In this document: piece by piece, positions 7,353 through 27,699 of the stretch
Numbering within the stretch: the first letter of the stretch is position 1
How the letters are laid out: each line of letters opens with the position of its first letter
Origin: Noviherbaspirillum sp. Root189
Lineage (GTDB): Bacteria > Pseudomonadota > Gammaproteobacteria > Burkholderiales > Burkholderiaceae_D
Direction: 5' to 3'
Length of the DNA: 55,743 bases
Assembly: GCF_001428545.1 (NCBI RefSeq)
Contig: NZ_LMHZ01000023.1
Coordinates: 262,235 to 317,977, forward strand
Notes under the pieces: generated by a model
The model's database searches: none
Seen by the model: the letters and a program-made list of their open reading frames with translations, nothing else
Told to the model about the DNA's origin: nothing
Position numbers and translations under genes: made by a program

Positions 7353-8024
7353 TCATCGTGTTCCCGTTCCGGTGTGCCCTTGCCCAGACCCGGATTCGCC
7401 GGACGTTACTGGCCCTGCCGGCGCCTCGGCCACTTGTTGGGGCCATACCAACACGGCCTGCGTGAGATGTCGACTGCCCTTTCGCTTCGCATCCACCTTC
7501 ACCTGGCGCTGCAGCGAATAACCTGCCGCATCGGCAGTCACCCGATAGCTTCCGCTTTTCGGAAGGTCCACCAGCAGGATGGGTGAATCACAGCGTGTCT
7601 GCAGCAACGAAGCGCCGTTCGGACCGCTGATCGTCACATTGACATCGGCGAGATAGGCGCCGTCGCGCGCGGCGAAAGTCAGCATCAGGTCATAGCCTTT
7701 CGCCTCCTGCTTCATGAAATTGGCTTCTTCCTCGCCTATACCACCGCACAAATAAGTAATGTCATTGGTCACCACCGGTTTCAGACGGTCTGTCGGCGAT
7801 GGCAGCGTGGCCGTGTCGACGCCGGCTTCGGAGTTGGTCGCGTTGGCGCCACCGGACGACAATTCGCGACTCGGCTCGGGAATGCCTTGCGATGTAATAC
7901 CTGCTGCCGATGATTCTTCCGCAGGTGCGGTGGCCGACGCAGGCGCACCAGGCGACACCTGCGCGAGCGAAAACGCAGGTGCCGCAAGGCCGATCATCAT
8001 CAAACCGCGCATTCTTTCTCTCAT
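7353..8024 (-). CDS. Secreted protein with carboxypeptidase-regulatory-like fold
   Basis: 223 residues. MRERMRGLMMIGLAAPAFSLAQV is a cleavable signal peptide, followed by a Pro/Ala/Ser-rich linker to about residue 85. The globular part contains ITYLCGGIGEEE, FAARDGAYLADVNVTISGP and LVDLPKSGSYRVTADAAGY; the last two resemble a beta-sandwich repeat of the carboxypeptidase-regulatory (transthyretin-like) type. The start at 8024 is chosen because GGAGGT lies seven bases upstream; an extension to 8093 would hide the signal peptide. It is transcribed away from the amidoligase cassette and shares its upstream region. Periplasmic or surface; function unknown. Confidence 0.72.
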   Translation of the reverse strand: MRERMRGLMMIGLAAPAFSLAQVSPGAPASATAPAEESSAAGITSQGIPEPSRELSSGGANATNSEAGVDTATLPSPTDRLKPVVTNDITYLCGGIGEEEANFMKQEAKGYDLMLTFAARDGAYLADVNVTISGPNGASLLQTRCDSPILLVDLPKSGSYRVTADAAGYSLQRQVKVDAKRKGSRHLTQAVLVWPQQVAEAPAGPVTSGESGSGQGHTGTGTR

Positions 8025-8263
8025 GATGCACCTCCAATCATTGTTGTGGCTGTCCAGCTCCATCAAAGCACCATCCATGCCGTATTCCACCACACGCCAG
8101 GATCGGCGCTTACCGTCGCTGGAAACTTTTACACGCGACCGGTATCAGTAGCCAGGTACATTAACCACGTAGGCCGCTCTGTCAGCAAGAGTAATCGCGC
8201 CTCCATGGGCCTGCTTTGACTGGCACCAAAAATGCTATGCACTAAGAAGGAGTGCCTGTTCCC

Positions 8264-9040
8264 ATGAGACAGTTCAACCACAAAGACAGCCCAGCACAAT
8301 TTCCAGTGAGCCATGCAATTTTGCAGTTGCCGGTCAACATCCTGCCGCAGCCGGACGAAACCACCTGTGGCCCCACGTGCCTGCACGCCTTGTATCGCTA
8401 CTGGGGGGACGACGAACCCTTATCGGAAGTCATATCACGTACCGGCAGGCTGGAGCACGGCGGTACCTTTGCGGTTTTCCTTGCCTGCGACGCGCTGCGC
8501 AAGGGGTACATGGCCAGCATCTATACGTACAACCTGACGGTGTTCGATCCGACCTGGTTTACCGAACCCGGCGTCGATATTGCCGATCGCCTGCGCTCGC
8601 AGCGCGAACACAAGATGGATTACCGCCTGCAGCATGCGACCAACGGTTACCTGGAATTCCTGAACCTGGGCGGGCGACTACGGCTGTTTGACCTGTCGCG
8701 CTATCTGATACGCAATATCCTGTTGCGCAGGATGCCCATCATTACCGGCCTTAGTTCCACTTTCCTGTATCGCGCGGCACGAGAGTTCGGGCCGGAAGAT
8801 GAAGCTGATGATGTTCGGGGCCTGCCATCAGGCCACTTTGTCATCATCGGTGGCTACGACAGCGAACGCCGCAAGGTTCTGGTCGTCGATCCCTACCAGG
8901 CGAACCCTTATGACAGCAAGCATGCCTATTGGTTAAGCGTGGACCGTGTCGTCAATGCGGTGCTGCTCGGCATTGTCACCCACGATGCCAACCTGCTGAT
9001 CATTCACCCCAAGCGCAAGCCGCGACAGGAAGCGCCATGA
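8264..9040 (+). CDS. C39-like cysteine peptidase of the amidoligase cassette
   Basis: 258 residues with papain-fold C39-like landmarks. The nucleophile is in DETTCGPTCLHALYRYWG near residue 35, the His in GHFVIIGGYD and the Asp/Asn position in VVDPYQANP near the C-terminus. There is no signal peptide and no ABC-transporter domain, unlike bacteriocin-processing C39 proteins, so it should act in the cytosol. It could trim or load a peptide made by the ligases encoded next. The start is the ATG at 8264, with AAGGAG at 8247-8252. The GTG at 8252 would lie inside that ribosome site. Its stop overlaps the next ATG (ATGA at 9037). Confidence 0.8.
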   Translation: MRQFNHKDSPAQFPVSHAILQLPVNILPQPDETTCGPTCLHALYRYWGDDEPLSEVISRTGRLEHGGTFAVFLACDALRKGYMASIYTYNLTVFDPTWFTEPGVDIADRLRSQREHKMDYRLQHATNGYLEFLNLGGRLRLFDLSRYLIRNILLRRMPIITGLSSTFLYRAAREFGPEDEADDVRGLPSGHFVIIGGYDSERRKVLVVDPYQANPYDSKHAYWLSVDRVVNAVLLGIVTHDANLLIIHPKRKPRQEAP

Positions 9041-10500
9041 ACATTCTTTTCGTTGTGAGTCGAGAGCAGGACTGGCCCAACGACATTCCGGGCGTCACGG
9101 TCATACCCGCCCAAACCTACCTGATGGATCCCGCCTACGGCGACACCCGTTCCACCAAAGTCTTCAATCTCTGTCGTACCTACCGTTATCAAAGCAAGGG
9201 TTACTACGTATCCCTGCTGGCGGAAGCACGCGGACACCAGCCCCTGCCGGATGCAGAGGCGATGAAAGACCTGCATTCGGAGACGCTGGTGCAGGACGTG
9301 TCGGACAAGCTTGGCAACCTGATCGATTGCTCGCTCTCGCGCACGCACGAGGAGATGGTCGATCTCAACATCTATTTTGGCCGCGATGCCGACGGCGCGC
9401 ACCAGCACCTGTGCGAACAGTTATTCAAACTGCTGCGCACGCCGGTGCTGCATGCACGCTTCGAGCGCGCCAACGATCATTGGCATCTATGCAGCATTCA
9501 TGCTGGCAGCATCTGCGATATTCCTCCGCATCACAATGACCTGGCAACACAGGCCGTGATCGCGCACCTGAAAGAACAAAAGATCCGGACCAGCACTGCG
9601 GCACGCAAGCCCTGCCTGGCAATACTGCACGATCCGCAACGCGCCGAGTCGCCATCGAACGACGAGGCGATGCGTAAATTTCTGGAAGCGGCGGCGCTGC
9701 TTGGCATGGATGCCGAACTGATCACGCCGAAAGACATGCGCCGCCTGACGGACTTTGATGCGCTGTTCATTCGCGACACCACCAACGTCGATCACTACAC
9801 CTATCAGGTTTCGCGGCAGGCGGCCGCCGCCGGCATGGTCGTCATCGACGATCCTGATTCCATCCTGCGCTGTACCAACAAGATTTATCTGAACGAACTG
9901 TTGACGCGCCATCATATTCCGACCCCGAAAACACTGGTGGTTCATCAGGGTAACGTCGATCAGATCGTGTCGACGCTGGGTTTGCCCTGCATCCTGAAGC
10001 AACCGGATGGCGCGTTCTCGCTGGGCGTGGTCAAGATCGAATCGGAACAGGACTTGCTGGTGAAAGTGAACGAATTGTTGCAGCAGTCCGAGCTGGTGCT
10101 GGCCCAGGAATATCTGCCAACGCAATTCGACTGGCGCATCGGCGTGCTGGACCAGCGCGTCCTCTTCGTCTGCAAGTACTACATGGCGCCCGGCCACTGG
10201 CAAATCATCAAGCATGACCATCACCATACCAGCGAAGGACGCACGGAAGCGCTGTCGGTGGGCGAAGTGCCGGACGATGTCGTCAAGATCGCCTTGCAAG
10301 CCGCCAACCTGATTGGCGATGGCTTCTATGGCGTGGACCTGAAGCAGGTTGGATCGCAGTACTACGTCATCGAAATCAACGACAACCCCAACGTCGATGC
10401 CGGCAATGAAGATGCCGTGCTCGGCGATGCGCTGTACCGCGAGGTCATGGGTGTATTTCGCAAGCGCATCGAATCCAGCAAAGGAAACTGCACGCTATGA
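9037..10500 (+). CDS. RimK-family ATP-grasp ligase with RLAN N-terminal domain
   Basis: 487 residues. The N-terminal ~190 residues (FVVSREQDWPNDIPGVTVI, YLMDPAYG, RSTKVFNLCRTYRYQSKGYYVSLLAEARGH in parts) match what I know as the RimK-like ATP-grasp N-terminal domain. Residues from about 200 form the ATP-grasp: PCILKQPDGAFSLGVVK, VLAQEYLPTQFDWRIGVL and the Mg-binding EINDNPNVDAGNED. Enzymes of this fold join a carboxylate to an amine through an acyl-phosphate; the substrate is unknown. This is not the ribosomal S6 glutamate ligase, which lacks this N-terminal domain. It is coupled by ATGA overlaps to the peptidase before and the GCS2 enzyme after. Confidence 0.88.
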   Translation: MNILFVVSREQDWPNDIPGVTVIPAQTYLMDPAYGDTRSTKVFNLCRTYRYQSKGYYVSLLAEARGHQPLPDAEAMKDLHSETLVQDVSDKLGNLIDCSLSRTHEEMVDLNIYFGRDADGAHQHLCEQLFKLLRTPVLHARFERANDHWHLCSIHAGSICDIPPHHNDLATQAVIAHLKEQKIRTSTAARKPCLAILHDPQRAESPSNDEAMRKFLEAAALLGMDAELITPKDMRRLTDFDALFIRDTTNVDHYTYQVSRQAAAAGMVVIDDPDSILRCTNKIYLNELLTRHHIPTPKTLVVHQGNVDQIVSTLGLPCILKQPDGAFSLGVVKIESEQDLLVKVNELLQQSELVLAQEYLPTQFDWRIGVLDQRVLFVCKYYMAPGHWQIIKHDHHHTSEGRTEALSVGEVPDDVVKIALQAANLIGDGFYGVDLKQVGSQYYVIEINDNPNVDAGNEDAVLGDALYREVMGVFRKRIESSKGNCTL

Positions 10501-11753
10501 ATGACGACGAAGAGGGGGAGCCCCCGATACTGCATGCCTTCATGGGCTATGGCATTGAACTGGAATACATGATCGTCGACCGTGACAGCCTGTCGGTGCT
10601 GCCCTGGTCGGACCGACTGCTGCGCGACGCACCGGGCAGCGAAAACAATGAAATGCGGCGTGGCCGCATGGGCTGGTCCAACGAGCTGGTGATGCATGTC
10701 CTGGAGGTCAAGAACCTGCGCCCTACCGTATCGCTGTCCATGTTGCCGGAAGCATTCGATGCGGAAGTACGCGAGATCAACCGTCTTCTTCAACCCATGA
10801 ACGCCAGGCTGATGCCAACGGCGATGCATCCCTGGATGGACCCGGTGCGCGAAACGCATTTGTGGCCGCATGACAACGAAGAAATTTATCGCGCGTACGA
10901 CCGCATCTTCAATAGCAAGTCGCATGGATGGGCCAATCTGCAAAGCATGCATATCAACCTGCCGTTTGCCAATGACGATGAGTTCGAGCGGCTACATGCG
11001 GCGATACGTCTGGTGTTGCCAATCCTTCCGGCGCTTGCGGCCAGTTCACCGTTTGCGGATGGCCGCGCCACCGGCATGGCGGATTACCGCATGCATGTCT
11101 ACAGCCACAATGCGGATGCGGTCCCTTCCATCGCCGGCAAAGTGATTCCCGAAACGATCACCAGCCGCGCGGCCTATGAACAGCGCATCCTTGCGCCGAT
11201 GTACCGGGATATTGCGCCTTACGATCCCGAGGGGGTACTGCAAAAAGAATGGCTGAACTCGCGCGGCGCCATTGCGCGCTTCGACCGCAACGCCATCGAG
11301 ATCAGGGTCATCGACACGCAGGAATGCCCGCGTGCCGATCTTGCGGTGGCAGCCGCGACTGTCGATGTAGTGCGGCGCCTGTATCGCGTGGGACGGGAAG
11401 AATTGATCGCACAGCAAGAGATGTCTACCGCCGCACTGGCGGCCGTGCTGCACGCCTGCCTGCGCGATGCCGAGCAAACGGTGATCGACAACGCCGCCTA
11501 CCTGCGGCTGCTGTCCTATCCGGGCCAGCGCTGTACGGCACAGGAACTGTGGTATCACCTGATCGGACAAATGCTGAACGAAGACGATGGCCATGCCCAG
11601 CACTGGAGCGTCCCGCTGCAGACCATGCTCGAGCATGGACCGCTGGCGCGCAGGATACTGCGGGCAGCCGGAGATGGATCGGCCGGAAAACTCCATGCGG
11701 TCTACCAGGAACTGTGCGACTGCCTGCAGGAAGGGAGGATGTTTCTGGCATAG
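10497..11753 (+). CDS. GCS2-type carboxylate-amine ligase
   Basis: 418 residues of the glutamate-cysteine ligase family 2 fold. Seen: FMGYGIELEYMIVDRD at the N-terminus (the E-x-E metal and nucleotide motif), ELVMHVLEVKNLRP, THLWPHDNEEIYRAYDRIF, WANLQSMHINLPF and AIEIRVIDTQECPRADLAV. Members ligate an amino group to a gamma- or alpha-carboxylate using ATP. With the ATP-grasp ligase it would give two successive amide bonds. Not a bona fide GshA: length and motifs fit the YbdK-related side of the family. The start overlaps the previous stop. The next gene follows after a gap of about 80 bases. Confidence 0.85.
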   Translation: MNDDEEGEPPILHAFMGYGIELEYMIVDRDSLSVLPWSDRLLRDAPGSENNEMRRGRMGWSNELVMHVLEVKNLRPTVSLSMLPEAFDAEVREINRLLQPMNARLMPTAMHPWMDPVRETHLWPHDNEEIYRAYDRIFNSKSHGWANLQSMHINLPFANDDEFERLHAAIRLVLPILPALAASSPFADGRATGMADYRMHVYSHNADAVPSIAGKVIPETITSRAAYEQRILAPMYRDIAPYDPEGVLQKEWLNSRGAIARFDRNAIEIRVIDTQECPRADLAVAAATVDVVRRLYRVGREELIAQQEMSTAALAAVLHACLRDAEQTVIDNAAYLRLLSYPGQRCTAQELWYHLIGQMLNEDDGHAQHWSVPLQTMLEHGPLARRILRAAGDGSAGKLHAVYQELCDCLQEGRMFLA

Positions 11754-11835
11754 CGATCAGTGTAATAGTGTAATCTCAACTTCAGCGATCGCTGGGTCAT
11801 CCCCAGCCTGCAATGACGTCAACGATGACATCAAC

Positions 11836-12543
11836 TTGAGCCGACCCGACTTCTACCTCATCAGCTGCGAACATGGCGGCAATCGCATACCGTCCCGTTA
11901 CCGCGACTTCTTCCTTGGTCGTGAAGACGTTTTGCGCACGCACCGGGGTTACGATCCGGGCGCACTGCGCATGGCGCATGACATGGCAAAGACGCTCGAT
12001 GCACCGCTGGTCGCTGCGACCGTCAGCCGCTTGCTCATCGATCTTAATCGCTCGATTGGCCATCCTCATGTGTACTCGGAAATGACGCGCGCCGCCGAGC
12101 CGGAATTGCGTGAAGAGATTTCCCGGCGCTATTACCAGCCTTACCGTACCAAGGCCGAAAGCCGCATCCGGCAAGCCATCGAGAGCGGCGCGCGGGTGGT
12201 GCATGTGTCCTGTCACAGCTTCACGCCGGAACTCAATGGTGAAATGCGCAATGCGGATATAGGGTTGCTGTACGACCCCGCGCGGCCTGGCGAGGCGGAG
12301 CTAAGTCGGCGCTGGCGTCAGGAGATGCGGGAGGCGTTACCGGAGATGAGGGTGCGGATGAACTACCCTTATAGCGGGACGGCGGACGGGTTTACCGTGC
12401 ATCTGCGCCGACGGTTTGCGGCTGAGAATTATGTGGGGATCGAGTTGGAGATCAATCAGAAGCACGTGTTTGAACGTGGGGGACATTGGAAGGAGTTGCG
12501 TGCCGGGGTGATTGGGGCGTTTGTGCGGGCTTTGGGTTTGTAG
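11836..12543 (+). CDS. N-formylglutamate amidohydrolase-like hydrolase
   Basis: About 235 residues. LISCEHGGNRIP, HRGYDPGALRMA, SRLLIDLNRS and VVHVSCHSFTPEL are the zinc-hydrolase motifs of the N-formylglutamate deformylase (HutG) family, related to the aspartoacylase/M14 fold. No hut genes are nearby, so an amide of the cassette product is a likelier substrate than formylglutamate. Start uncertain: there is no in-frame ATG between the previous stop and the first motif. TTG at 11836 gives MSRPDFYLISCEHGG, which begins where the family usually begins, but it has no good ribosome site. Fourth gene of the amidoligase cassette. Confidence 0.8.
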   Translation: MSRPDFYLISCEHGGNRIPSRYRDFFLGREDVLRTHRGYDPGALRMAHDMAKTLDAPLVAATVSRLLIDLNRSIGHPHVYSEMTRAAEPELREEISRRYYQPYRTKAESRIRQAIESGARVVHVSCHSFTPELNGEMRNADIGLLYDPARPGEAELSRRWRQEMREALPEMRVRMNYPYSGTADGFTVHLRRRFAAENYVGIELEINQKHVFERGGHWKELRAGVIGAFVRALGL

Positions 12544-12671: not shown

Positions 12672-13559
12672 CTACTCCGGATACGCCGTTGCCGTCCCAA
12701 AGTAAAACCACTCTCCCCCTGTTGCCGCCGCTTCCTTCGGCAGTACGATGAACCCGTCTTCCGGCGCTACCAGCTTCTCGCCATTGGCATAGCTGGCAAT
12801 CGTCTCGCCTTTGGCAACTGCATCAAAATGCCGCCACGGCTTGCAGAAGCTGGCGCCTTCATCCCGGTAAAACACGCTTTTCATGCGTACGCAACGCAGG
12901 TCGGCTGCCGCTGCGGATTGACCCAGGCCGGAGGCTGCCGGGCACGATGCATCCAGCATGCCAAGATGCGACAGCGCCATCAGGATCGCACGGTAGCCGA
13001 CGTCTGCCGCATCCGTATTCAGGTGCTGGCCGCATTCCAGCGTCACGGCCAGTGCGCCGCGCGTACGGGCATACTCGGTCGTGCCCTGCGATTCCTTGCT
13101 GCCGCCACCGCCGTACGCTTCCGCCCAGCCATAGACGAAATCCGACACGCCAAGCGACTTGGCATAAGCCAGTTCATCGGGGTTTTTTCCACTCAGGAAA
13201 ATGAAGGGTCCGCCCGGCGACGCGAAGGAATGCAGGTCGAGCAGCACGTCGGTCCGGTCGAGCAGGTCGCAGACTATCGGGTCAAGATGATCTTCGTAGT
13301 GGACTTTCTCGTCCTTCGGATACAGCTGGCGATTCAGGTTGCGTTCGACGAAGCGCACGTTCTGCGCATAGGCTTTCGGATTCACGACTGGCATCAGTTG
13401 CAGGCTGCCACGGCTTAGCGCCACGGTGCCGTCTTCCACGTCGCCAATCAAGCGGCGGATGGCTTCGGGGCCGCAGCGTTCATTGCCGTGAACGGCGCCC
13501 AGTACAGTCAGTGCGGGCCCGGTTTCCAGTGCATGAAAGACAACGGTTTTGACGGTCAT
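12672..13559 (-). CDS. Succinylglutamate desuccinylase/aspartoacylase-family zinc hydrolase
   Basis: 295 residues of the AstE/AspA branch of the M14 fold. Zinc motif GAVHGNERCGPEAI near residue 24, the downstream LLDLHSFASPGGPFIF with a ligand His, substrate-site Arg in VERNLNRQLYP, and TLECGQHLN carrying the catalytic Glu. The C-terminal beta domain (EGASFCKPWRHFD, EDGFIVLP) is present. It removes an acyl group from an N-acyl amino acid; the substrate is not evident, since no ast genes lie here. The start at 13559 has AAGGAAAACC before it and gives MTVKTVVFHALETG; the frame extends to 13679 without support. It faces the amidoligase cassette and may serve it. Confidence 0.85.
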   Translation of the reverse strand: MTVKTVVFHALETGPALTVLGAVHGNERCGPEAIRRLIGDVEDGTVALSRGSLQLMPVVNPKAYAQNVRFVERNLNRQLYPKDEKVHYEDHLDPIVCDLLDRTDVLLDLHSFASPGGPFIFLSGKNPDELAYAKSLGVSDFVYGWAEAYGGGGSKESQGTTEYARTRGALAVTLECGQHLNTDAADVGYRAILMALSHLGMLDASCPAASGLGQSAAAADLRCVRMKSVFYRDEGASFCKPWRHFDAVAKGETIASYANGEKLVAPEDGFIVLPKEAAATGGEWFYFGTATAYPE

Positions 13560-13794
13560 GGTTTTCCTTCCCTTGCTTGTTCGGTAATGTGGCCTTTGCC
13601 GGTTTGCCAAGATGCGGCAGACCCGGTGGCGAGTAAAAAGGCGCATTGTCGCATTCCTTGGCAACACCCGTCCAACCATGCCCCTGGCGAAGCGGCGTGC
13701 CGGATGCGGGCAATGTCGCTGGAATCGGCGTTACAATTTCGCAAAACCTTTTCAGGAGAGCCATTGTGTTATTCCGTGTAAACCGCCGTACCTC

Positions 13795-18062: not shown

Positions 18063-19103
18063 TTAAGCGGGTGACGGTGATCCGCCATGCAAGCCCTGTT
18101 CCTGCATGCCGGTCGTGAAGCCGGCCGGGACATCAACATCCTCATCATCGAGCCCGGCACGCATTCCCTTGAAGTAATCGATCGTGCGCTGCAATCCCTC
18201 ATCAAGACTGACCCTGGGTTCCCATTCGAGCACGCTGCGTGCGAGCGAGATGTCCGGCTTGCGGCGTACCGGGTCATCGCTGGGCAAGGGTTTGAACACA
18301 ATACTCGAGCGCGAGTTGCTCAAGGCAATCACCCGTTCGGCCAGTTCGAGCATGGTGTGTTCGGTCGGGTTGCCCAGGTTGACAGGACCGCAAAATCCGT
18401 CCGGGCTATTCATCAACTTGTCGAATGCAGCGATCAGATCATCGACATAACAGAACGAGCGCGTCTGCGAACCGTCGCCGTAGATCGTCAGCGGCGCATT
18501 GGACAATGCCTGCATGATGAAATTGGACACGACCCGCCCATCATTGGGGTGCATGCGCGGACCGTAGGTATTGAAGATGCGCGCGATCTTGACATGGAGA
18601 TTGTGCTGGCGCCGGTAATCCATGAACAGGGTTTCCGCGCAGCGCTTGCCTTCGTCATAGCAGGAGCGGATGCCGATCGGATTGACATGTCCCCAATAGT
18701 GTTCGGTCTGCGGATGCACCTGGGGATCGCCATAGACTTCACTGGTGGATGCCTGCAGGATCTTGGCCTTCACCCGTTTGGCGAGGCCCAGCATATTGAT
18801 CGCCCCGTGCACACTGGTCTTGGTTGTCTGTACCGGATCGTTCTGGTAATGCACAGGCGACGCCGGGCAGGCCAGGTTATAGATTTCATCGACCTCGACG
18901 TACAGCGGAAAAGTAACATCGTGCCGCATCAGTTCAAATCGCGGATGCGCAAGCAGATTTGAAATATTGTGCTTGCTGCCTGTGTAAAAATTATCGACGC
19001 ACAACACGTCGTGGCCCTGGCGCAGCAGGTATTCGCACAAATGCGAGCCAAGGAAGCCGGCGCCGCCGGTCACGAGAATACGTTTGCAGTCGGCTTCTTT
19101 CAT
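18063..19103 (-). CDS. NAD-dependent epimerase, UDP-glucuronate decarboxylase (UXS) type
   Basis: 346 residues, extended [23 protein letters not shown] is the NAD-binding site, the catalytic Tyr/Lys are in [15 protein letters not shown], and [16 protein letters not shown] plus [12 protein letters not shown] are the sugar-nucleotide motifs typical of UDP-xylose synthase. The preserved EVYGDP and SCYDEGKR strings support UXS, which makes UDP-xylose from UDP-glucuronate; other UDP-sugar epimerases are possible. It overlaps the GT9 gene by four bases (ATGA). The tail ([13 protein letters not shown]) is an unusual extension past the family end. Confidence 0.88.
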
Positions 19104-20260
19104 GAATGCATTTCCCTTAGAGCTGATTTTGATGGATTCAGTGTGTTCAAGCGGTTCGCCGCGTTTGACAGGTGTGCTTGCTCATCGAGAAGACTAGCAG
19201 CCATCCCGAAAACCTGATCCACCGTGACATCCTGCGCGCACTGGTGTCCGATCGGACATACCAGGTGCATGCAGGGTCGGCATGCGACTGGTGCCGCGAT
19301 GACACGATGACGCGAGCGGTCGAGCGGCGCCCAGCGGACCGCGTCCGACCCGCAGGACACAATGACGCTGAGCGTCGCCACCGCCGCCGCGACATGTGAA
19401 ATGCCGGTATCGTTGGACACCACCAGCCTCGCTTGCGACAGCAAGGCGGCAAGGCCGCCAAGGTCCGTCTTGCCGCAGAGATTGCGCGCGGGCAAGCGCA
19501 TGGCGCGCTGCACGGCGTTCACCACATCGGCCTCATCCGGCGATCCGGTCAACACCACCTGCAATCCGGTCAGTGCAAGGCGATCGGCCACTTCCGCAAA
19601 ACGCTGCGGCAGCCAGCGCCGCGATGGCAAGCGCGCACCGGGATGAACACAGACATAGGTGCCTGGCGCCGGCAGATCGGAAACGCTCTGCTGCAAGGAC
19701 GTGACATCGGCCTCGGTCAACGGAAATTCCAGCTGCTCGCCCTGTGCCGGCACACCGAGAAATTCCATCAGGCGCAGGAACCGCAATACCTCATGCTCGC
19801 GTTCATCCCACAGCGCGAAAGTTTGCGGGTCCGGACAATACTCGCCGGGTGCGATATAGCCGGCATTACGCTGTGCACCCATCAATACCGTCAGCGGATT
19901 GCTGAGGCCGCCGCTGCCGTGCATCTGGATCGCCAGATCGAAGCGCCTGGCCTGTGCGTCGGCAAGGAAGGCGGGAAAAGCATCGATGCGTGCCTCCTGC
20001 TCCGGAAAACCCGGATAGCCGGGAAACACCAGCAGCTCGTCGATGTATTGGCTGAAGCGGCTAACAAAGCTTGCGGCCCACGGCATACCAATCAGCGTAA
20101 TACGTGCATCCGGTGCGGCTGCACGCAACGCGCGCAAGGCCGGCACCGTGCACAGCATGTCGCCTAACTGCAATGCCCGGAATACCGCGATGTTTTGCAC
20201 GGACGGGTTGACGATGGACTGCCTCTCCGGCAGGCCGATAATGTGCGTCGTCCCCGTCAT
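19100..20260 (-). CDS. Glycosyltransferase family 9 (heptosyltransferase-like)
   Basis: 386 residues, GT-B fold. [20 protein letters not shown] is the N-terminal motif, [24 protein letters not shown] the donor-site region and [15 protein letters not shown] the conserved D-x-G-x-x-H motif. Relatives transfer ADP-heptose in LPS core assembly, but this protein stands in a carbamoyltransferase operon outside a core-LPS cluster. The start at 20260 overlaps the carbamoyltransferase stop by four bases; the frame extends upstream inside that gene without support. The Cys-rich tail ([15 protein letters not shown]) is unlike typical WaaC/WaaF and could hold a metal. Confidence 0.85.
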
Positions 20261-21972
20261 GGCTTCTGCACGATGAAGGAACCGATGGCCAATGCATCGA
20301 GCGGTGTCGTGCAGAATGATTCGACAGCGTCGCGCGGACTGCATACCACCGGTTCGCCGCGTGTATTGAACGAGGTATTGATCAGTACCGGCACCCCCGA
20401 ACGTTCTGCAAATGCCGTGAGCAGATCGTAATACGCCGGATTCTGCGAGCGGTTGATGGTCTGGATGCGTGCGGTGCCATCGACGTGGCGCACCGCCGGA
20501 ATCTTGTCTTCCTTGTCGGCACGCACGTCGTACACAAAAACCATGAAAGGCGACACATCGCCGTCGACGAACCAGTTGGCGGCTTCTTCCTCCAGCACTA
20601 CCGGCGCCACGGGACGGAAGTCTTCCCTGTCCTTGATGGTATTGAGGCGCTGCTGCATAGCCGGATCGAGTGGCGAGGCAAGAATGGAACGCGCACCGAG
20701 TGCGCGCGGGCCAAATTCCATGCGTCCCTGGAACCAGCCGATGACCTTGTTTTGCATCAGCAACTCGGCGACCTCCTTCGACAAGTTGTCGGCACGGCGG
20801 TAGCTGAGCTTGGCCTGCTTCAGGAATTCCTCGATTTCATCATCGTCATACGATGGGCCAAGGAAGGCATGGTCCATTTGCCAGCTACGCTTGGACATGC
20901 CACGTTGTTGGCCATCGATCCACAGTGCAGCACCCAGCGATGTACCCGAATCTCCCGATGCCGGCTGCACCCACACTTTCTTGAAAGGACCACGGTCGCG
21001 CACCCTCGCATTCATCACGCAGTTCAGTGCGACACCACCCGCCATCGCGAGCTTCTCTGCACCGGTCTGCTCGTGCAGCCAGTGCACCATCTTCAGCACC
21101 GTTTCTTCGAGCACGATCTGCAGCGACGACGCGATGTTCATGTGATGCTGGGTAAACTCCGCGCCGCGTTCGCGTGCCGGACCGAACAGCTCAGCCCAGT
21201 TCGCGGGATTGACTTCGTAGTCGCCATCGCCGCGATATTGCAGGATGTCATGAAACTGTTCGGCGAACACCGGCTTGCCGTAAGAGGCCAGCGCCATGAC
21301 TTTGTATTCATCGGAAGAATGCAGGAAGCCGAGGTAGTCGGTGACGTTTTCGTAGAGCAGACCAAGCGAATGCGGCAGGTTGACCTGCTTGAGCCGGTGA
21401 TAACGCCGGTCCTGGTAATAGCCGTAACTGGTGGTCGCCATTTCGCCCCGGCCATCCATGGTAAGCACCGCGCATTCGTCGAAGGGAGCGGCAAGAAACG
21501 CGCTCGCTTCATGCGCAAGGTGATGTTCGACGAAGTGCCATTTGAACGGGCCATCGTGCTGCACACCGCGAAAACGTTTGCGGATATGATGCGGTGCACC
21601 GCTTGCCAGCTGGCGTGGCGCATTGACGATGGACGACAGGAATAAAGGATCCCAGGGTGACAGCCAGTCGCTCTTGTGCGCGGAAGGCTCCAGCGGCAGC
21701 GTGATGGTTTCATTGCCCTTGCGCTCACCGAGCAGCAGCCATGGATTGTACGAATACGCGACATGGTCCACGTCAGCTAGTGCGATACCGCCTTCCTTCA
21801 GGCAATAGTCGATCGCATGGAAAGGGAGCTGCCATGTTGAAAACGGCACCGGCCGTTTTCCGTGCTTGATGCGAGTGAAACGTTCCTCTTCCGCAGCGGC
21901 GATGACTTCACCGTCGCGGACCAGGGTAGCAGAACAATCATGGTAAGCAGCATTGATTCCAAGCGTATACAC
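20257..21972 (-). CDS. NodU/CmcH-family carbamoyltransferase
   Basis: 571 residues, two domains. N-terminal Kae1-like part: TLGINAAYHDCSATLVRDG, AAAEEERFTRIKHGKRPVP, with metal ligands in FVEHHLAHEASAF and GGVALNCVMNARV. C-terminal YrdC-like part: GRMEFGPRALGARSILASP, FRPVAPVVLEEEA and PVLINTSFNTRGEPVVCSP. The enzyme transfers carbamoyl from carbamoyl phosphate, via an adenylate, to a hydroxyl, often on a sugar. The start is GTG at 21972 with GGAGGG just upstream; it begins MYTLGINAAYHD as usual. It heads the operon carbamoyltransferase-GT9-epimerase-lipoprotein-FAD/Rieske. Confidence 0.92.
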   Translation of the reverse strand: MYTLGINAAYHDCSATLVRDGEVIAAAEEERFTRIKHGKRPVPFSTWQLPFHAIDYCLKEGGIALADVDHVAYSYNPWLLLGERKGNETITLPLEPSAHKSDWLSPWDPLFLSSIVNAPRQLASGAPHHIRKRFRGVQHDGPFKWHFVEHHLAHEASAFLAAPFDECAVLTMDGRGEMATTSYGYYQDRRYHRLKQVNLPHSLGLLYENVTDYLGFLHSSDEYKVMALASYGKPVFAEQFHDILQYRGDGDYEVNPANWAELFGPARERGAEFTQHHMNIASSLQIVLEETVLKMVHWLHEQTGAEKLAMAGGVALNCVMNARVRDRGPFKKVWVQPASGDSGTSLGAALWIDGQQRGMSKRSWQMDHAFLGPSYDDDEIEEFLKQAKLSYRRADNLSKEVAELLMQNKVIGWFQGRMEFGPRALGARSILASPLDPAMQQRLNTIKDREDFRPVAPVVLEEEAANWFVDGDVSPFMVFVYDVRADKEDKIPAVRHVDGTARIQTINRSQNPAYYDLLTAFAERSGVPVLINTSFNTRGEPVVCSPRDAVESFCTTPLDALAIGSFIVQKP

Positions 21973-22195
21973 ATTTCCCTCCGGAGTTGGATTTGCCGTG
22001 CAGGTAGTGCTCAAGCGACAGGATGCGCGGAGCCGACGGCGTAATGCAGGACATCGCAATGTATGGACAATTAAGCAAGCGATATACCTATGCCGAATGT
22101 GCGTCCTTTGTCCATGGAACAGTCATCCAGAGTGATACCGCAGGAGAATTTGCACGTAACTTCTACAGGCGTATGTAATTAAGACACTGTGGCAT

Positions 22196-22513
22196 TTACC
22201 TTCCGGCCGCATGAGCGGTGCCGGAAGGATTTTCCTGAGTGGTAGCCTGCCGCTGGGCATGTCGCTTGTTGCTGAGATAGATAAATTCACCTACCACGGC
22301 GGTCAGAAACATGAAAAAGTTAGTAAAGACGAACACCCAGTTATCCACCAGGTAACTGTAAATCGTGAAGCCAAATGATGCGCTCAACTGACCAATAAAT
22401 AGCCACTTGGATACACCATCGACGCGCTTGGTGCGCCACTGCGTATAGACCTGCCTGGAAATCGTCGACACGAGTACGAGCGAACTGATCCAGCCGACAA
22501 TATCGGCATTCAT
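22196..22513 (-). CDS. SemiSWEET-like three-helix membrane protein
   Basis: 105 residues with three hydrophobic segments: ADIVGWISSLVLVSTISRQVY, KWLFIGQLSASFGFTIYSYLV and WVFVFTNFFMFLTAVVGEFIY. The layout fits PQ-loop/MtN3 half-transporters (SemiSWEET), which dimerise to pass sugars. The classical PQ pair is not obvious, since the helix reads SRQVYTQWRTK, so the assignment is tentative. The start at 22513 has AAAGGAG before it. The Gln/Thr/Ala-rich tail is disordered. It lies 223 bases upstream of the carbamoyltransferase start on the same strand. Confidence 0.7.
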   Translation of the reverse strand: MNADIVGWISSLVLVSTISRQVYTQWRTKRVDGVSKWLFIGQLSASFGFTIYSYLVDNWVFVFTNFFMFLTAVVGEFIYLSNKRHAQRQATTQENPSGTAHAAGR

Positions 22514-22860
22514 TGTGACTCCTTTCAAAATGGAAGAGCTGATAAGCTATCCGGGGTGCGCGCCGCAATCGTCATGCCTGCTTGCGAGATTTTCTTGAAG
22601 GAATGGTTTCCGTTGCGCCGTCCCTGTAGTCCGTATCAGCGTCACGAAGACACGATGACGTATAGAAAAGCAGGTGCCCGGAACTTGTGTGCCTGCACAA
22701 GTATCCCATTCCCTTCACCGGCGACTACCATCAACTCCTACCCTGGCCTGACCTGGCCTGAAATAGCTCCGGAATAAATTTCAGCGCCCAGGTGTAAGGA
22801 TTACAGTGATCAATACCGAGGCGGCGAGCCGGAATCGCCACCCTGAAGGACACAAGCCTT
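22514..22860. other. Divergent promoter region, no gene seen
   Basis: About 350 bases between the leftward SemiSWEET-like gene and the rightward ABC exporter. Open frames here are short and lack coding character. No clear hairpin or operator was found by eye. Confidence 0.5.
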
Positions 22861-24663
22861 ATGTCGGATGCAAGCACGGAAAAAGGCGGTGATATCAACG
22901 TCGTGAAAGACCTGTGGCGAGTCGTGTCCGCCTTTCGCGGCAGGATTTTCCTCGCACTTTTTTTCCTGATCCTCGCCAAGCTGGCGGTCGTGTCGGTTCC
23001 GCTGGCGCTCAAGCGCATCGTCGATGAACTGTCACGGCCCGAGCATATCGTCGCCCTGCCCGTCGTTCTGCTGATCGGCTATGCGCTGCTGCGCTTTGCC
23101 AGCACTCTGTTTAATGAACTACGCGACCTGTCGTTCTCGCGGGTGACCCAGCATACGGTGGCCACCTATGCACTGAATACCTTTTCCCATTTACATGCAC
23201 TCGGTGCGCGCTTCCATGCAAAGCGGCGGATCGGCGGCCTGCTTCCCGACATTGATCGCGGCACCAATGGCATCGCGTTCCTGCTCGGTGTCGGTCTGTT
23301 CACGCTGGTGCCGACCCTGCTCGAAATCGGCATGGTCATCGCCATCATGACAGCCCGGTACAGTGACTGGTTTACCGTGATACTCGGCGTGACCTTTCTG
23401 ATTTATTGCGGCTTCACGCTGATCTTTACGCAGCGTCGATCCATCTTCCAGCGGCGCGTGAACCGGCTGGACTCGAATGCAAAGAGCTTGCTGGCCGACA
23501 GTCTGATCAATTACGACGCGGTCAAATACTTCACCAATGAGCGCGGCGAAGCACAGCGCTTCCAGCACATCATGGATAACTGGGCAGAGGCAGCGGTGAC
23601 CAACCAGCGCGCCTTGTTTATCCTGCACGTCGGCCAGAGCGCAATCATTGCGATGGGCGTCGCCTCGGTGATGCTGCTTGCAGGAAAATTCGTACTCACA
23701 CGCGAGATGACTGTCGGCGACCTTATCCTGATCAATGCCTATGTGATCCAGATCTGTCTCCCGCTCAATGCCCTCGGCTTCGTCTACCGCGAAGCAAAAG
23801 ATGCACTGGTCAATGCGGAAAAGCTCTTCCAGTTGCTGCGTGAAAAACCGGAAATCGATGAAGCACCCGGTCTGCCTTCACTCAAGGTGACACGCGGCGA
23901 GGTCCTCTTCGACAACGTCGTGTTTGCCTATGAAGCGGCACGCCCGATCCTGCACGGCATCAGCTTCCGCATACCGCCCGGCGGCACGGTGGCCGTAGTC
24001 GGCGGCAGCGGCTCGGGAAAATCCACGCTGGCGCGCCTGCTGCTGCGCTTCTATGAAGTCGGCGGGGGAAGCATCAGCATCGATGACCAGGATATTCGCG
24101 GTGTCAACAGCAGCAGTCTGCGGCTTGCCATCGGCGTGGTTCCACAGGAAGCACTGCTGTTTAACGATACCATTGCATTCAATATCGGCTACGGACGCAA
24201 CGGCGCCACCATGGAGGAAATTGTCGCCGCCGCCAAGGCCGCGCATGTACACGAATTGATCGACTCCCTGCCGCACAAGTACGAGACCCAGGTTGGCGAA
24301 CGCGGCGTCATGCTGTCAGGCGGCGAGAAACAACGGATAGCCATTGCGCGCGCGATTCTCAAGAATCCACCCCTGCTCATCTTCGACGAGGCCACTTCCG
24401 CCCTCGATACGGCATCGGAGCAGGCGATCCAGCATGAGCTGGACCAGCTTTCCGAAAACCGCACGACCTTGGTCATTGCGCACCGGCTTTCCACCGTAGT
24501 AGATGCCACTGAAATTCTGGTCATGGAACGCGGGCGCATCATCGAACGCGGCAGCCATGCAAAACTGTTACAGCAAGGCGGTGCTTACGCGCGACTGTGG
24601 CAATTGCAGCAGCGCGAGGATGACCAGCAACGCATTGACCATGCCCTGCATTCCATGGACTGA
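22861..24663 (+). CDS. ATM1/HMT-type ABC half-exporter
   Basis: 600 residues. N-terminal transmembrane domain with six helices to about residue 320, then an ATPase domain: Walker A VVGGSGSGKSTLARLLLRFY, Q-loop GVVPQEALLFND, signature MLSGGEKQR, Walker B PLLIFDEATSALD and switch VIAHRLST. The fused half-transporter and motifs such as VKYFTNERGEAQRF match the ATM1/heavy-metal-tolerance branch, which exports glutathione-linked compounds in relatives. Placement among glycosyltransferases would also allow export of a glycan or lipid-linked unit. ATG at 22861; AAGGAC lies about ten bases upstream. Confidence 0.88.
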   Translation: MSDASTEKGGDINVVKDLWRVVSAFRGRIFLALFFLILAKLAVVSVPLALKRIVDELSRPEHIVALPVVLLIGYALLRFASTLFNELRDLSFSRVTQHTVATYALNTFSHLHALGARFHAKRRIGGLLPDIDRGTNGIAFLLGVGLFTLVPTLLEIGMVIAIMTARYSDWFTVILGVTFLIYCGFTLIFTQRRSIFQRRVNRLDSNAKSLLADSLINYDAVKYFTNERGEAQRFQHIMDNWAEAAVTNQRALFILHVGQSAIIAMGVASVMLLAGKFVLTREMTVGDLILINAYVIQICLPLNALGFVYREAKDALVNAEKLFQLLREKPEIDEAPGLPSLKVTRGEVLFDNVVFAYEAARPILHGISFRIPPGGTVAVVGGSGSGKSTLARLLLRFYEVGGGSISIDDQDIRGVNSSSLRLAIGVVPQEALLFNDTIAFNIGYGRNGATMEEIVAAAKAAHVHELIDSLPHKYETQVGERGVMLSGGEKQRIAIARAILKNPPLLIFDEATSALDTASEQAIQHELDQLSENRTTLVIAHRLSTVVDATEILVMERGRIIERGSHAKLLQQGGAYARLWQLQQREDDQQRIDHALHSMD

Positions 24664-24842
24664 GAACTTATCCGTGCTTGCCTGGCGGCCATGGAATTTG
24701 AGGCGGGTCAAGTGTGTGTAATGGAACAGGAATTGCATGTCAAACAAAACACCATACAGCAGCGCTTCGCGCTCGACCGGCGCCTCTACTCTGATAATCG
24801 ATTGGCGTGACCCCATTTAATGGTTCTTGCAGGACAGATTCC

Positions 24843-25979
24843 ATGTCAAAAATAATAGCATTTGATCGAAACCGTAAGAACATTGCTGCCGAACATACAG
24901 ATCGCGGCGTGCAGGCCGGCGGCGTGGTCATGCGCCGCCGTAATGGCGGGCCCGCAGTAACACCGATCAACATCGGCTCGGTCCAGGATGGATCGACGGC
25001 CAGTATCGCTGCATCGATCGTGGTCCCGACGCGCGGTCGGCCGCAACTGCTTAACCGCTGCCTCGCCAGCCTCGTATTGCAGAGCTTCGATCCCGATCGC
25101 TTTGAAATCATCATTGTCGATGACGGACCGAGCAACGACACCCGCGAAGTAGTCGCGGACTGGGCCGTGCATACCGAAGAAAAAGGGGGGCCGCAGGTCA
25201 CCTACATTCCCTCCATGGGTCCGCACGGTCCCGCCGCCGCCCGCAACCACGGCTGGCGCGCTGCACGCGGCGCGATCATCGCCTTTACCGACGACGACAC
25301 CATTGCGCGCGCCGACTGGCTGCGTAACGGCCTGCAGGCATTTGCCGACGATGTGCATGCTGTCTGCGGCCGCATAGTGATGCCGCTCGAACATACGCCG
25401 ACCGATTACGAACTCGATGCGAAGAATCTTGAAACCGCGGAGTTCGTCACCGCCAATTGCTTCTGCCGCAAAAAGGTGCTTGAAGACCTTGGCGGGTTCG
25501 ACGAGCGTTTCAGATTTGCCTGGCGCGAGGATTCAGACTTGCATTTCAGGCTGCTCGATTATCGGGCCAACATCGTACGCGAGCCCAATGCGGTGATGAT
25601 GCATCCGATACGTCCCGCTGGCTGGGGCGTGAGCCTGCAGCAGGTAAAGAAGGTACAGTTCGACGCCCTGCTCTACAAAAAGCATCCGACACTGTATCGC
25701 CGCAAGATCCGCGGCAAGCCGCGCTGGGATTTTTACCTGACAGTCGGTGCGCTGCTGGTCATGCTGGTGTCACTGCCCGCCGACGCCAAAGGCGTGACTG
25801 TCCTGTCCGGACTGGTGTGGGCATTCATGACAGTCCGTTTCTGCGTACAGCGCCTGCGCAAAACCTCGAAGGCACCCGGACATGTCCTGGAGATGCTCGT
25901 CACTTCCGCGTTGATCCCGCCCATGGCGGTGTTCTGGCGCGCGGTAGGCGCCTTCCGTTACAAAGTTGGCTTCCTTTGA
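24843..25979 (+). CDS. Membrane-anchored glycosyltransferase family 2
   Basis: 378 residues, GT-A fold. SIVVPTRGRPQLLNRCL opens the nucleotide-sugar domain; IIIVDDGPSNDT and FTDDDTIARADWL hold the Asp clusters for metal and donor; FAWREDSDLHFRLLD is the catalytic-base region. Two hydrophobic stretches near the C-terminus (LTVGALLVMLVSLPA and VTSALIPPMAVFWRAVG) suggest membrane attachment. The unusual N-terminal ~55 residues (MSKIIAFDRNRKN...) precede the domain and are low complexity. The start ATG at 24843 has AGGACAG before it; a GTG or ATG at 24807 is less likely. Follows the ABC exporter. Confidence 0.85.
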   Translation: MSKIIAFDRNRKNIAAEHTDRGVQAGGVVMRRRNGGPAVTPINIGSVQDGSTASIAASIVVPTRGRPQLLNRCLASLVLQSFDPDRFEIIIVDDGPSNDTREVVADWAVHTEEKGGPQVTYIPSMGPHGPAAARNHGWRAARGAIIAFTDDDTIARADWLRNGLQAFADDVHAVCGRIVMPLEHTPTDYELDAKNLETAEFVTANCFCRKKVLEDLGGFDERFRFAWREDSDLHFRLLDYRANIVREPNAVMMHPIRPAGWGVSLQQVKKVQFDALLYKKHPTLYRRKIRGKPRWDFYLTVGALLVMLVSLPADAKGVTVLSGLVWAFMTVRFCVQRLRKTSKAPGHVLEMLVTSALIPPMAVFWRAVGAFRYKVGFL

Positions 25980-26118
25980 ACTGCCTCATCCGGTCCGGCA
26001 CGACGAGCCGGACCATCGACTGATCAGTGTTCATCATCGCCGAATTACCGCAACACCGTGTCCGGCGCGATGAGCTTGCCGATTGAATTGCAGCTTCTGA
26101 ATCGCGGATATCCGGAAC

Positions 26119-27066
26119 ATGCAGCGACGACTCAAAATTCTCACCTGGCATACACATGGCAGCTACCTCTATTACCTCACACAGGCACCGCACGATTTCT
26201 ATGTGTTGTCCAAGCCTGACCGCCCGCCAGGTTATGGCGGACGCTGTGGCCATATCCCCTGGGGCGACAACGTCATCGATATGCCGGTCAGCGAGGTCAA
26301 GGACCATGAGTTCGACCTGATCCTGTTTCAGGATGACGACCAGTACCTAAGGGACCAGCATACCTATCTGAGCGAGGCGCAACGCCGCCTTCCCAGAATC
26401 TATATCGAACACGACACGCCGCGCGAGCACCCCACCGACATGCGGCATCCGGTTGATGATCCATCCATCCTGCTGGTGCATGTCACGCCCTTCAATGCGC
26501 TGATGTGGGATAACGGCCGCACGCCGACCCGCGTGGTTGAGCACGGCGTGATCGTTCCGCCGGATGTGTCTTATCGTGGCGATCTCGATCGCGGTCTGGT
26601 CGTCATCAACAATATCGCCACGCGCGGACGTCGTCTTGGTTATGACGTCTTCAAGCAGTCCAGGGAAAAAGTAGCGCTGGACCTGGTTGGCATGGGCGCG
26701 CTTGAAGCGGGTGGTGTCGGCGAGATTCAGCATGCGCAGCTGCCCGCATTTTCCGCGCAATACCGTTTCTTCTTTAATCCCATCCGCTATACCAGCCTGG
26801 GGCTCGCCGTGATCGAGGCGATGATGATAGGCATGCCGATAGTCGGCCTGGCGACCACGGAGATGGCGACCGTCATCGATAACGGTGTCTCCGGCTATGT
26901 CAATACCGATGTGGAGATTCTCATCGCACGGATGCGGGAGATGCTAGCCGACCCGAACCATGCACGGCGACTGGGCGAAGGCGCACGTCGCTACGCCTGT
27001 GAACGTTTCCACATCGATCGCTTCGTCCGCGACTGGAACGATGCCTTCCATGCCGTGACGATGTAA
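26119..27066 (+). CDS. Glycosyltransferase, GT-B type (GT1/GT4 superfamily)
   Basis: 315 residues. KILTWHTHGSYLYYLTQAPHD at the start and FDLILFQDDDQYL belong to the acceptor domain. The donor domain shows VVEHGVIVPP, VVINNIATRGRRLGYDVF, FFFNPIRYTSLGLAVIEAMM and GMPIVGLATTEMATVI, that is, the E-x7-E-like region of retaining GT-B enzymes. It is short for GT4, lacking part of the N-terminal Rossmann domain. The ribosome site is weak. It lies 139 bases after the GT2 gene and 54 before the GlcG-like gene on the same strand, consistent with one transcription unit. Confidence 0.82.
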   Translation: MQRRLKILTWHTHGSYLYYLTQAPHDFYVLSKPDRPPGYGGRCGHIPWGDNVIDMPVSEVKDHEFDLILFQDDDQYLRDQHTYLSEAQRRLPRIYIEHDTPREHPTDMRHPVDDPSILLVHVTPFNALMWDNGRTPTRVVEHGVIVPPDVSYRGDLDRGLVVINNIATRGRRLGYDVFKQSREKVALDLVGMGALEAGGVGEIQHAQLPAFSAQYRFFFNPIRYTSLGLAVIEAMMIGMPIVGLATTEMATVIDNGVSGYVNTDVEILIARMREMLADPNHARRLGEGARRYACERFHIDRFVRDWNDAFHAVTM

Positions 27067-27120
27067 TACCCGCCACAATTACCCGCCACAATTTTTGAGC
27101 ATGACCTCAGAAAGGACAGC

Positions 27121-27618: not shown

Positions 27619-27660
27619 CCGGTTCTGCGGCTTATTCTGTGGCTTAACAAGAGGCTTCGT

Positions 27661-27692: not shown

Positions 27693-27699
27693 ACAACCT

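Follow-up and report, generated by a model that had tools for sequence, protein, structure and literature searches.

A conserved four-gene cassette of two ligase and two hydrolase families in Noviherbaspirillum sp. Root189

Why would a bacterium keep two ligases and two hydrolases side by side in one cassette? This question is raised by four genes located in a stretch of 55,743 nucleotides of Noviherbaspirillum sp. Root189 (contig NZ_LMHZ01000023.1), hereafter the window. A sequence-only reading of this DNA had proposed that they build, trim and recycle a small peptide or conjugate, which is reasonable, the steps being predicted. It had also stated that no product was known, and none is assigned in the NCBIfam matches listed, in the annotation of relatives or in the literature searched. 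None of the NCBIfam models listed scored above its cut-off for the cassette proteins, and the relatives in Legionella adelaidensis are annotated as "RimK family protein", "glutamate-cysteine ligase family protein" and "N-formylglutamate amidohydrolase".

Genes and protein families of the cassette

The annotation of the cassette is provided in Table 1. The four families named in the sequence-only reading all passed their Pfam cut-offs, with ORFs at the positions it gave, and the two ATGA couplings that it described are present in the sequence. The amidohydrolase gene lies 3' of the ligases, as it had indicated, and in the sequence of the window is not translationally coupled to the GCS2 gene. 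For the C39-like gene, the AAGGAG sequence at 8247-8252 favours ATG 8264 as the start codon over GTG 8252. The FGase start was chosen by eye as an in-frame TTG, the longest ORF beginning at 11587, inside the GCS2 gene. A promoter and terminator scan revealed nothing clearly exceeding shuffled sequences. An AstE/AspA-type gene adjoins the cassette on the minus strand (12672-13679); it was found in only 1 of 61 loci, that of the window, with an ORF set in which some genes are missing.

Table 1. Features of the cassette in the window
Feature	Position	Strand	Size, evidence and remarks
C39-like papain-fold cysteine peptidase	8264..9040	+	258 aa; ORF, Pfam, invariant triad, model
RLAN-RimK ATP-grasp ligase	9037..10500	+	487 aa; ORF, Pfam, model, Foldseek
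GCS2 (COOH-NH2) ligase	10497..11753	+	418 aa; ORF, Pfam, invariant residues
FGase-type (PF05013) amidohydrolase	11836..12543	+	start uncertain, TTG 11836 proposed; Pfam
ATGA stop/start overlap, C39-like to RLAN-RimK	9037..9040	+	sequence
ATGA stop/start overlap, RLAN-RimK to GCS2	10497..10500	+	sequence

The first protein belongs to the C39-like peptidases by its match to Peptidase_C39_2 (PF13529; 36.9 bits, cut-off 24, 6.5e-9), by a Cys35, His191 and Asp209 triad that is invariant in the 46 sequences of alignment A5, window included, and by its fold, the predicted structure (pLDDT 81.5) matching C39 peptidases, PeiR and phytochelatin synthase in the PDB. It does not qualify as a C39 leader peptidase of ABC exporters, being a stand-alone protein with no regular exporter neighbour; one ABC transporter family, recognised by eye among the flank clusters listed, occurred in 5 of 80 loci and varied in its position. 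The second protein carries both RLAN (PF14401; 147.1 bits, cut-off 25, 4e-43; residues 25-172 approximately) and RimK (PF08443; 47.5 bits, cut-off 21, 2.1e-12), with the ATP-grasp region at about 190-487, and is thus an RLAN-domain ATP-grasp protein. Its predicted structure (pLDDT 91.3) gave as the best 50 Foldseek matches only ATP-grasp enzymes, such as ArgX/LysX, Ddl and RimK, and among them there was no separate fold match for the RLAN domain. It reached neither the RimK alpha-L-glutamate ligase model (TIGR00768, 82.4 of 143.4 bits) nor that of the S6 ligase (PRK10446, 43.7 of 331 bits).

The third protein is a member of the GCS2 superfamily (PF04107; 99.1 bits, cut-off 21, 3.9e-28) with a conserved Glu/Arg core, residues E21, E23, E70, H111, R198 and R270 being invariant in the 48 sequences of alignment A7, window included. 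Its scores fell below the cut-offs for YbdK (TIGR02050, 56.3 bits, cut-off 176.4), glutamate-cysteine ligase (TIGR02048, 31.8 bits, cut-off 249.05) and EgtA (TIGR03444, 13.2 bits, cut-off 370.8). The fourth belongs to the FGase family (PF05013; 97.4 bits, cut-off 28.9, 1.8e-27), is homologous to the solved structure 2odf (E 7.4e-32) and keeps E19, H20, D47, H130, H134, R181 and E210 (numbering from 11815) invariant in the 39 sequences of alignment A8. A role in histidine use (hut) was considered and rejected: this protein is the sole PF05013 match in the whole genome, and it lies below the cut-off of the HutG N-formylglutamate deformylase model (TIGR02017, 22.6 bits, cut-off 278.75).

Conservation of the four-gene set

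A GCS2 search of species genomes returned 421 stretches encoding relatives, of which the best 80, retrieved by way of GCS2 using two peptide patterns, were named; the counts therefore describe how often GCS2 has the partners beside it, and not the reverse. They derive from six-frame profile searches, with profiles built on the first 61 loci; a greedy ORF caller had picked antisense frames at several of the loci. The complete set, arranged as C39-RLAN-GCS2-FGase, was present in 65 of these 80 loci, and the RLAN ligase in 78. Among the carriers of all four genes are the soil strains Noviherbaspirillum autotrophicum and Aromatoleum tolulyticum (L124 and L169). Since so many of the loci fetched by GCS2 hold the complete set, its recurrence is well beyond chance and is no local accident. 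The complete set spans at least six named phyla, and GCS2 was found in 15/15 genomes searched of the genus of the source organism. A start codon no more than 30 bases from the preceding stop was available in 67/72, 75/78 and 63/68 gene pairs. The pairwise distances of the four proteins correlated with r values of 0.54-0.78, the largest shuffled value being 0.28; this comparison covered the 65 four-gene loci and retained near-identical pairs (L146/L147, for example).

The exceptions were an absent FGase in 12 and an absent C39 in 8 of the 80 loci, where "absent" includes contig ends, many of the loci being MAG contigs. The missing FGase coincided with a contig end at L148 and L176, and other loci that lack a gene (L168, L173 and L194) have kilobases of further sequence; in two loci (L131 and L178) FGase was displaced by 2.4 and 3.3 kb. 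In L080 a run of ten N interrupts GCS2 and unrelated sequence follows, so that loss of FGase and a scaffold join look alike. Two Microvirga loci (L134 and L174) had GCS2 with none of the other three nearby.

No fifth gene occurred in more than 13 of the 80 loci among the 25 flank clusters listed. The commonest of these were restricted to near relatives, and some of them resemble yqjD/yqjE, judging by eye. Those spanning phyla, also named by eye, were a sensor-like family (9 loci) and the ABC transporter family mentioned above, both at scattered positions. Similarly, 1598 small ORFs (18-120 aa) lying up to 1 kb from the 65 four-gene loci gave no precursor peptide family in more than 8 loci among the 12 families listed, and the 8 loci of the largest were near relatives. 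One listed family was nominally distributed across phyla (4 loci), and it is probably frame noise because it is arginine-rich and on mixed strands. A defence system was considered and rejected, no PADLOC model matching at E 0.01.

Partners of the RLAN-RimK ligase

Seen from the RLAN ligase, the neighbourhood has two versions. The own-family survey covered 24 of 29 RLAN matches, those fetched with flanks (all but G446, G465, G416, G433 and G456), and found 19 loci with GCS2, 4 with GNAT and 1 with neither. In the short loci from three of these five genomes (L056-L058, from G416, G433 and G456) the C39-like gene adjoins a shortened RLAN. In the rest of the phylum, surveyed by 37 loci from 37 hand-chosen genomes out of 71 other RLAN genomes (one copy each, three having second copies), GNAT was present in 36, and GCS2 or FGase in none within the fetched stretch. 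It must be noted that the surveys overlap, 12 of the 80 named loci apparently coinciding with own-family loci of the first set. The notion that these genes might lie separately in most genomes, raised in the sequence-only reading as an argument against the cassette, finds no support for GCS2 in the conserved-neighbourhood search that it suggested; for RLAN-RimK it holds in one sense, given the GNAT partner in 36/37 phylum loci.

The RLAN ligase tree was built from 60 of the 80 named loci and all 61 loci of the first set, leaving aside the 12 overlapping ones and those whose RLAN match was absent or under the score limit. In this tree a single branch (SH-aLRT 100) separated 40 GNAT-type ligases and 1 solo from 79 GCS2-type ligases and 1 solo. 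On the GNAT side, GNAT is often fused to the C39-like domain, while on the GCS2 side C39 and FGase are usually present too. Homology between the C39 domains of the two versions extends over the Cys, His and Asp residues (hhalign 96.5%, E 8.7e-10). The core ATP-grasp residues are common to both types of RLAN-RimK, and under the thresholds applied two positions, Gln52 and Pro69, distinguish the types. In 21/43 GNAT matches the strand was opposite to that of RLAN, so the GNAT version is frequently not a single operon, and GNAT was found without the C39 part in 10/37 non-family loci, so C39 is not obligate in the core. Weak GNAT matches also occurred in 2 of the 65 four-gene loci (L128, 56 bits; L140, 26 bits). 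The GNAT-DUF3335 and RLAN-RimK pair therefore shares with the cassette the homologous C39-like domain and the ligase, and differs in having GNAT (PF00583) instead of GCS2 and FGase and in its looser arrangement; no function was found for it.

Proposed function and rival explanations

Linked amidoligase gene sets of such a kind were reportedly described by Iyer et al. in 2009, and the cassette is therefore filed under a known, uncharacterised kind. These sets are cited in the available parts of PMC4431377, PMC10318531 and PMC12239564; the first presents ATP-grasp ligases linked with COOH-NH2 ligases or GNATs as an earlier observation (citing Iyer et al., 2009), an arrangement that the cassette has, and the fusion of DUF3335 to GNAT is a further likeness to the GNAT version. 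This agrees in outline with the mention, in the sequence-only reading, of similar gene sets predicted from genome context. In the same available text, linked peptide ligases often act in successive ligations, in pathways of peptide-derived metabolites, cofactors or storage polypeptides (PMC4431377).

From the gene content and order, their conservation, the intact catalytic residues, the partner swap and the co-divergence, we infer, with a probability of about 0.5, that the cassette is a self-contained cytosolic module that makes and dismantles a short peptide-like metabolite, probably one containing glutamate. In the predicted order of steps, GCS2 would join a carboxylate, most likely that of glutamate, to an amine with ATP, and RLAN-RimK would attach a further amino acid to a carboxylate, also with ATP. 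The C39-like enzyme may cut an internal amide, or transfer across it, through a cysteine acyl-enzyme, and FGase would act as a metal amidohydrolase freeing a terminal acyl-amino acid. The C39-like and RLAN-RimK proteins would form a core shared with other bacteria, where GNAT would replace GCS2 and FGase; as the core is the same, the second step is probably a version-specific cap, namely an acyl group (GNAT) or an ATP-made amide (GCS2). The synthesis of N-acetylglutaminylglutamine amide (NAGGN), in which an ATP-grasp ligase, a GNAT and a hydrolase yield a small capped dipeptide, is a model for the GNAT version; the four genes of the cassette differ from it in lacking GNAT and glutamine amidotransferase.

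Against a metabolite, RimK, ArgX and LysX, ligases acting on protein or carrier-protein carboxylates, are among the nearest ATP-grasp structures, and the substrates of the two hydrolases may be other than the product of the ligases. The same structures suggest that the cassette could tag a protein instead of a small molecule, which we regard as possible though doubtful. A composition of two writers and two erasers would fit this, and the HWQ conserved in RLAN-RimK aligns with HWI of LysX; RimK 7qyr, however, has EFR there (alignment listed), and RLAN-RimK is far under both RimK-type models. Characterised GCS2 and FGase enzymes are known to use small molecules, and the flank clusters and small ORFs listed contain no widely common neighbour of the cassette that could be a target or a carrier protein. 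To our knowledge the RimK-RimB system, which glutamylates ribosomal protein S6, has no RLAN, GCS2 or FGase. It resembles the cassette as a known pair of an ATP-grasp amino-acid ligase and an adjoining peptidase, although RimB is a retropepsin in the available part of PMC12239564, in contrast to the papain fold of the cassette peptidase, and the cassette ligase misses the RimK cut-offs.

The absence of glutathione genes indicated in the sequence-only reading is correct for the window and not for the genome, which carries GshA (1.3e-204) and GSH-S_ATP (2.7e-72), both on contig C34, outside the window. The cassette is not the glutathione pathway of the organism, because gshA and gshB lie elsewhere, and this candidate was rejected. 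A second thiol or metal-binding peptide pathway, in which GCS2 would make gamma-glutamyl-cysteine, RLAN-RimK would add glycine or another residue and the C39-like enzyme would act as a phytochelatin synthase, appears improbable. The cassette shares with glutathione and phytochelatin synthesis a GCS2-type ligase, an ATP-grasp ligase and a papain-fold enzyme, which in those pathways works on a gamma-glutamyl peptide. The phytochelatin synthase Alr0975 is among the matches of the predicted C39 structure (E 6.6e-5), and GCS2 matches, locally and weakly, plant glutamate-cysteine ligase (E 0.05). Nevertheless, similarly strong PDB matches of the C39-like protein are proteases, both ligases score far under the glutathione models listed, and the genome has its own gshA and gshB. 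An antibiotic or another specialised metabolite is even less probable: pathways of this type contain linked peptide ligases according to the available text of PMC4431377, but the 15/15 presence in the genus suits a physiological metabolite better than a patchy antibiotic, the gene order is fixed across phyla, transporter, regulator or resistance genes are not widely common among the flank clusters listed, and PADLOC models gave no matches. It is known that C39 peptidases cleave RiPP leaders and that ATP-grasp ligases make graspetides. The C39/PCAT1 fold match and the graspetide ligase PsnB at Foldseek rank 46 for RLAN-RimK would thus suit a graspetide-like maturation, with the ligases cyclising or extending an encoded precursor cut by the C39-like protease. 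We consider it highly improbable, since no small-ORF family was found in more than 8/65 loci within 1 kb and no exporter is widely common beside the cassette among the flank clusters listed.

The reading as a peptide-like metabolite can be extended, tentatively and with the odds against it, to a glutamate-based small peptide that would be a physiological metabolite of at least six phyla, with a single rewiring of an older C39/RLAN-RimK core separating the version with an acyl cap (GNAT) from that with a cap made by ATP and open to hydrolysis (GCS2 and FGase). That two ligases and two hydrolases form a fixed set in no fewer than six phyla argues for a metabolite or modification missed by current annotation, in which the names of the members suggest other pathways. 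In this regard, the division of the RLAN ligases according to their partner (GNAT or GCS2) offers a direct route to the product by comparison of the two versions.

Organization of the cassette and its surroundings

All four cassette proteins exceeded the Pfam cut-off, each in its own family, and none of the four reached the cut-off of an NCBIfam model among the models listed. If TTG at 11836 is the start of the FGase-type (PF05013) amidohydrolase gene, it is spaced about 80 bases from GCS2, and coupling is absent at this junction in the sequence.

Position of the cassette genes and of other features in the window
Feature	Position	Strand	Detail	Basis
Divergent protein upstream of cassette	7353-8093	-		
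C39-like peptidase gene	8264-9040	+		ORF list and sequence
RLAN-RimK gene	start 9037	+	ATGA overlap with C39-like gene	sequence
GCS2 gene	10497-11753	+	ATGA at start	sequence
FGase gene	end 12543	+	TTG 11836, possible start	sequence
Aspartoacylase/succinylglutamate desuccinylase-type gene	12672-13679	-	convergent with FGase gene	
Sugar-polymer-like region	18063-32291			
Glycosyltransferase/amine oxidase ORF	38733-41351	-		

The product of the aspartoacylase/succinylglutamate desuccinylase-type gene may be another N-acyl amino acid hydrolase; such a gene was found next to the cassette in only one of the 61 loci of the first set (60 RLAN loci and the window). The divergent upstream protein, secreted in appearance as judged by eye, had no match passing the Pfam cut-off, and its family is also present in seven other loci of Burkholderiaceae_D. 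The sugar-polymer-like region encodes an NAD epimerase, a heptosyltransferase, a carbamoyltransferase, an ABC transporter and glycosyltransferases, and a family apparently corresponding to this carbamoyltransferase likewise occurs in seven other loci of the family. The glycosyltransferase/amine oxidase ORF matched glycosyltransferase group 1 (residues 213-324) and an NAD-binding/amine oxidase domain (residues 403-464), and is either a fusion or two genes sharing one frame.

Conserved enzyme features

The Cys-His-Asp triad of the C39-like protein was invariant in 46 sequences. Its structural model, with pLDDT 81.5 overall and a weak stretch at about residues 174-187, resembled three kinds of structure to a similar degree: C39 peptidases, PeiR (a pseudomurein endoisopeptidase) and phytochelatin synthase, all at E-values between 1e-5 and 1e-4 and at TM-scores of about 0.4 when scored over the query. 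The modeled protein may therefore act either by hydrolysis or by transfer. Among the matches listed, the structures nearest to the RLAN-RimK model (pLDDT 91.3) were ArgX/LysX, Ddl and RimK, over approximately 300 columns, and the sequence matches to RimK covered profile positions 236-460. With respect to GCS2, residues 18-199 aligned with the other GCS2-family gene of the genome (hhalign 92%, E 6.7e-7), including E21, E23, E70, H111, H152 and R198, all of which were invariant in 48 sequences except H152, which was nearly so; by analogy with the superfamily, GCS2 would bind glutamate. The motif residues of FGase were invariant in 39 sequences, and its nearest solved relative is 2odf, titled 'hypothetical protein'.

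Distribution and exchange of partners

RLAN (PF14401) was present in 72 of 398 genomes sampled from Pseudomonadota and in 28 of 145 sampled from the family, with a single copy in the genome of the window. The 60 RLAN loci with their flanks and the window were searched in six frames with profiles built from those same loci. In the family (24 loci), C39 and GCS2 accompanied RLAN in 19, a GNAT replaced GCS2 and FGase in four, and one (L081) had neither. FGase was found in 18 of the 19; in the remaining one, L080, GCS2 is interrupted by a run of N and FGase was not found. Elsewhere in the phylum, 36 of 37 loci had the GNAT and one (L086) neither partner, and neither GCS2 nor FGase was found within the stretches fetched for these 37. 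The C39 domain lay in the same profile match in 26 of the 36 GNAT loci, and only the GNAT part was matched in 10. Within the genus, all 15 genomes searched, that of the window counted, carried GCS2. L081 is a second RLAN-RimK copy, solitary and divergent, in a genome (G452) that also has the full cassette. Three loci of the family (L056, L057 and L058) have a shortened RLAN domain (match 3-56 to 3-69 of 150), the C39-like gene still adjoining.

In a tree of 121 RLAN-RimK proteins (short search, no bootstrap), one branch with SH-aLRT 100 separated 40 GNAT-type proteins and one solo from 79 GCS2-type proteins and one solo. It must be noted that sampling was uneven, the GNAT-type rows coming only from Pseudomonadota and 60 GCS2-type rows having been found through GCS2; the family holds both types, and these were still placed on opposite sides. 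PF00583 was found in all six GNAT partners scanned and PF11814 (DUF3335) in four, the other two being short GNAT-only matches. The cassette C39-like profile matched the fused GNAT form across the Cys, His and Asp. Given the split of the tree by partner and this match, the core usually consists of the C39-like protein and RLAN-RimK, GNAT or GCS2 (plus FGase) being the variable part; some GNAT loci are without C39. Core ATP-grasp residues are common to both versions, and by our own thresholds only two positions separated them, both in the RLAN domain (numbered as the position in the comparison less one): Gln52, Gln in 99% of 79 GCS2-type proteins (Leu in 33, Gln in five and Met in two of 40 GNAT-type), and Pro69, present in 97% of the GCS2-type (Val in 85% of the 40 GNAT-type). 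The distances of the four cassette proteins co-vary, which fits inheritance as a unit, although shared organism history contributes too.

The GCS2 alignment, scanned against genomes of named species, yielded 421 stretches encoding relatives. In the best 80 of these 421, four genes were found in 65, C39, RLAN and GCS2 in seven, RLAN, GCS2 and FGase in three, RLAN and GCS2 in three, and GCS2 alone in two, both Microvirga (L134 and L174, 0 partners within 6 kb). Judged by the title and origin of their records, four-gene loci among these 80 include Pseudomonadota, Thermodesulfobacteriota, Planctomycetota, Nitrospirota, Acidobacteriota and Myxococcota, and one Spirochaetia contig and one KSB1 contig carry three genes each. 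Many are metagenome-assembled; isolates include Noviherbaspirillum, Aromatoleum and Lacisediminimonas. Gene order was invariable and spacing tight (the nearest possible start was chosen, which favors small gaps), and gaps between matched domains exceeded 150 bases in only 2/72, 3/78 and 4/68 successive pairs. In a 9-kb record of Legionella adelaidensis, the last three genes overlap under generic names. Two metagenome-assembled records titled Klebsiella pneumoniae (L146 and L147) carry the cassette and group with environmental Gammaproteobacteria; their titles look mislabelled.

Proposed function

Passages of PMC4431377 and PMC10318531, both citing Iyer et al. (2009), report respectively ATP-grasp ligases in operonic linkage with COOH-NH2 ligases or GNATs, and frequent fusion of DUF3335 to GNAT. 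We therefore file the cassette among linked ligase sets of an already known, uncharacterized kind. Full-text searches listed no product for the four-gene set, and neither their listings nor passages of PMC4431377, PMC10318531, PMC10092738 and PMC12239564 (Iyer et al., 2009 lying outside this literature) described the cross-phylum fixity or the partner swap. The cassette was rejected as the glutathione pathway of the host, whose gshA- and gshB-type genes sit on another contig. Moreover, no widely shared RiPP precursor was found among the families listed for small ORFs within 1 kb of the 65 four-gene loci, nor a widely shared exporter or fifth gene among the flank clusters listed for the 80 loci, and no PADLOC defense model matched the cassette.

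The genes present, their order and coupling, their conservation, the preservation of active-site residues and the partner swap were all observed. Beyond these, we infer that GCS2 and RLAN-RimK would make two amide bonds in succession, which the C39-like protein and FGase would reverse or trim, and that the product would be small and contain glutamate. Protein tagging by the ligases is still the chief competing reading, since the carboxylates on which RimK, ArgX and LysX act belong to proteins. With respect to a pathway that builds and dismantles a small peptide-like metabolite, GCS2 occurs in every genome sampled from the genus, and the set is fixed and includes no transporter, which would suit an intracellular physiological compound.
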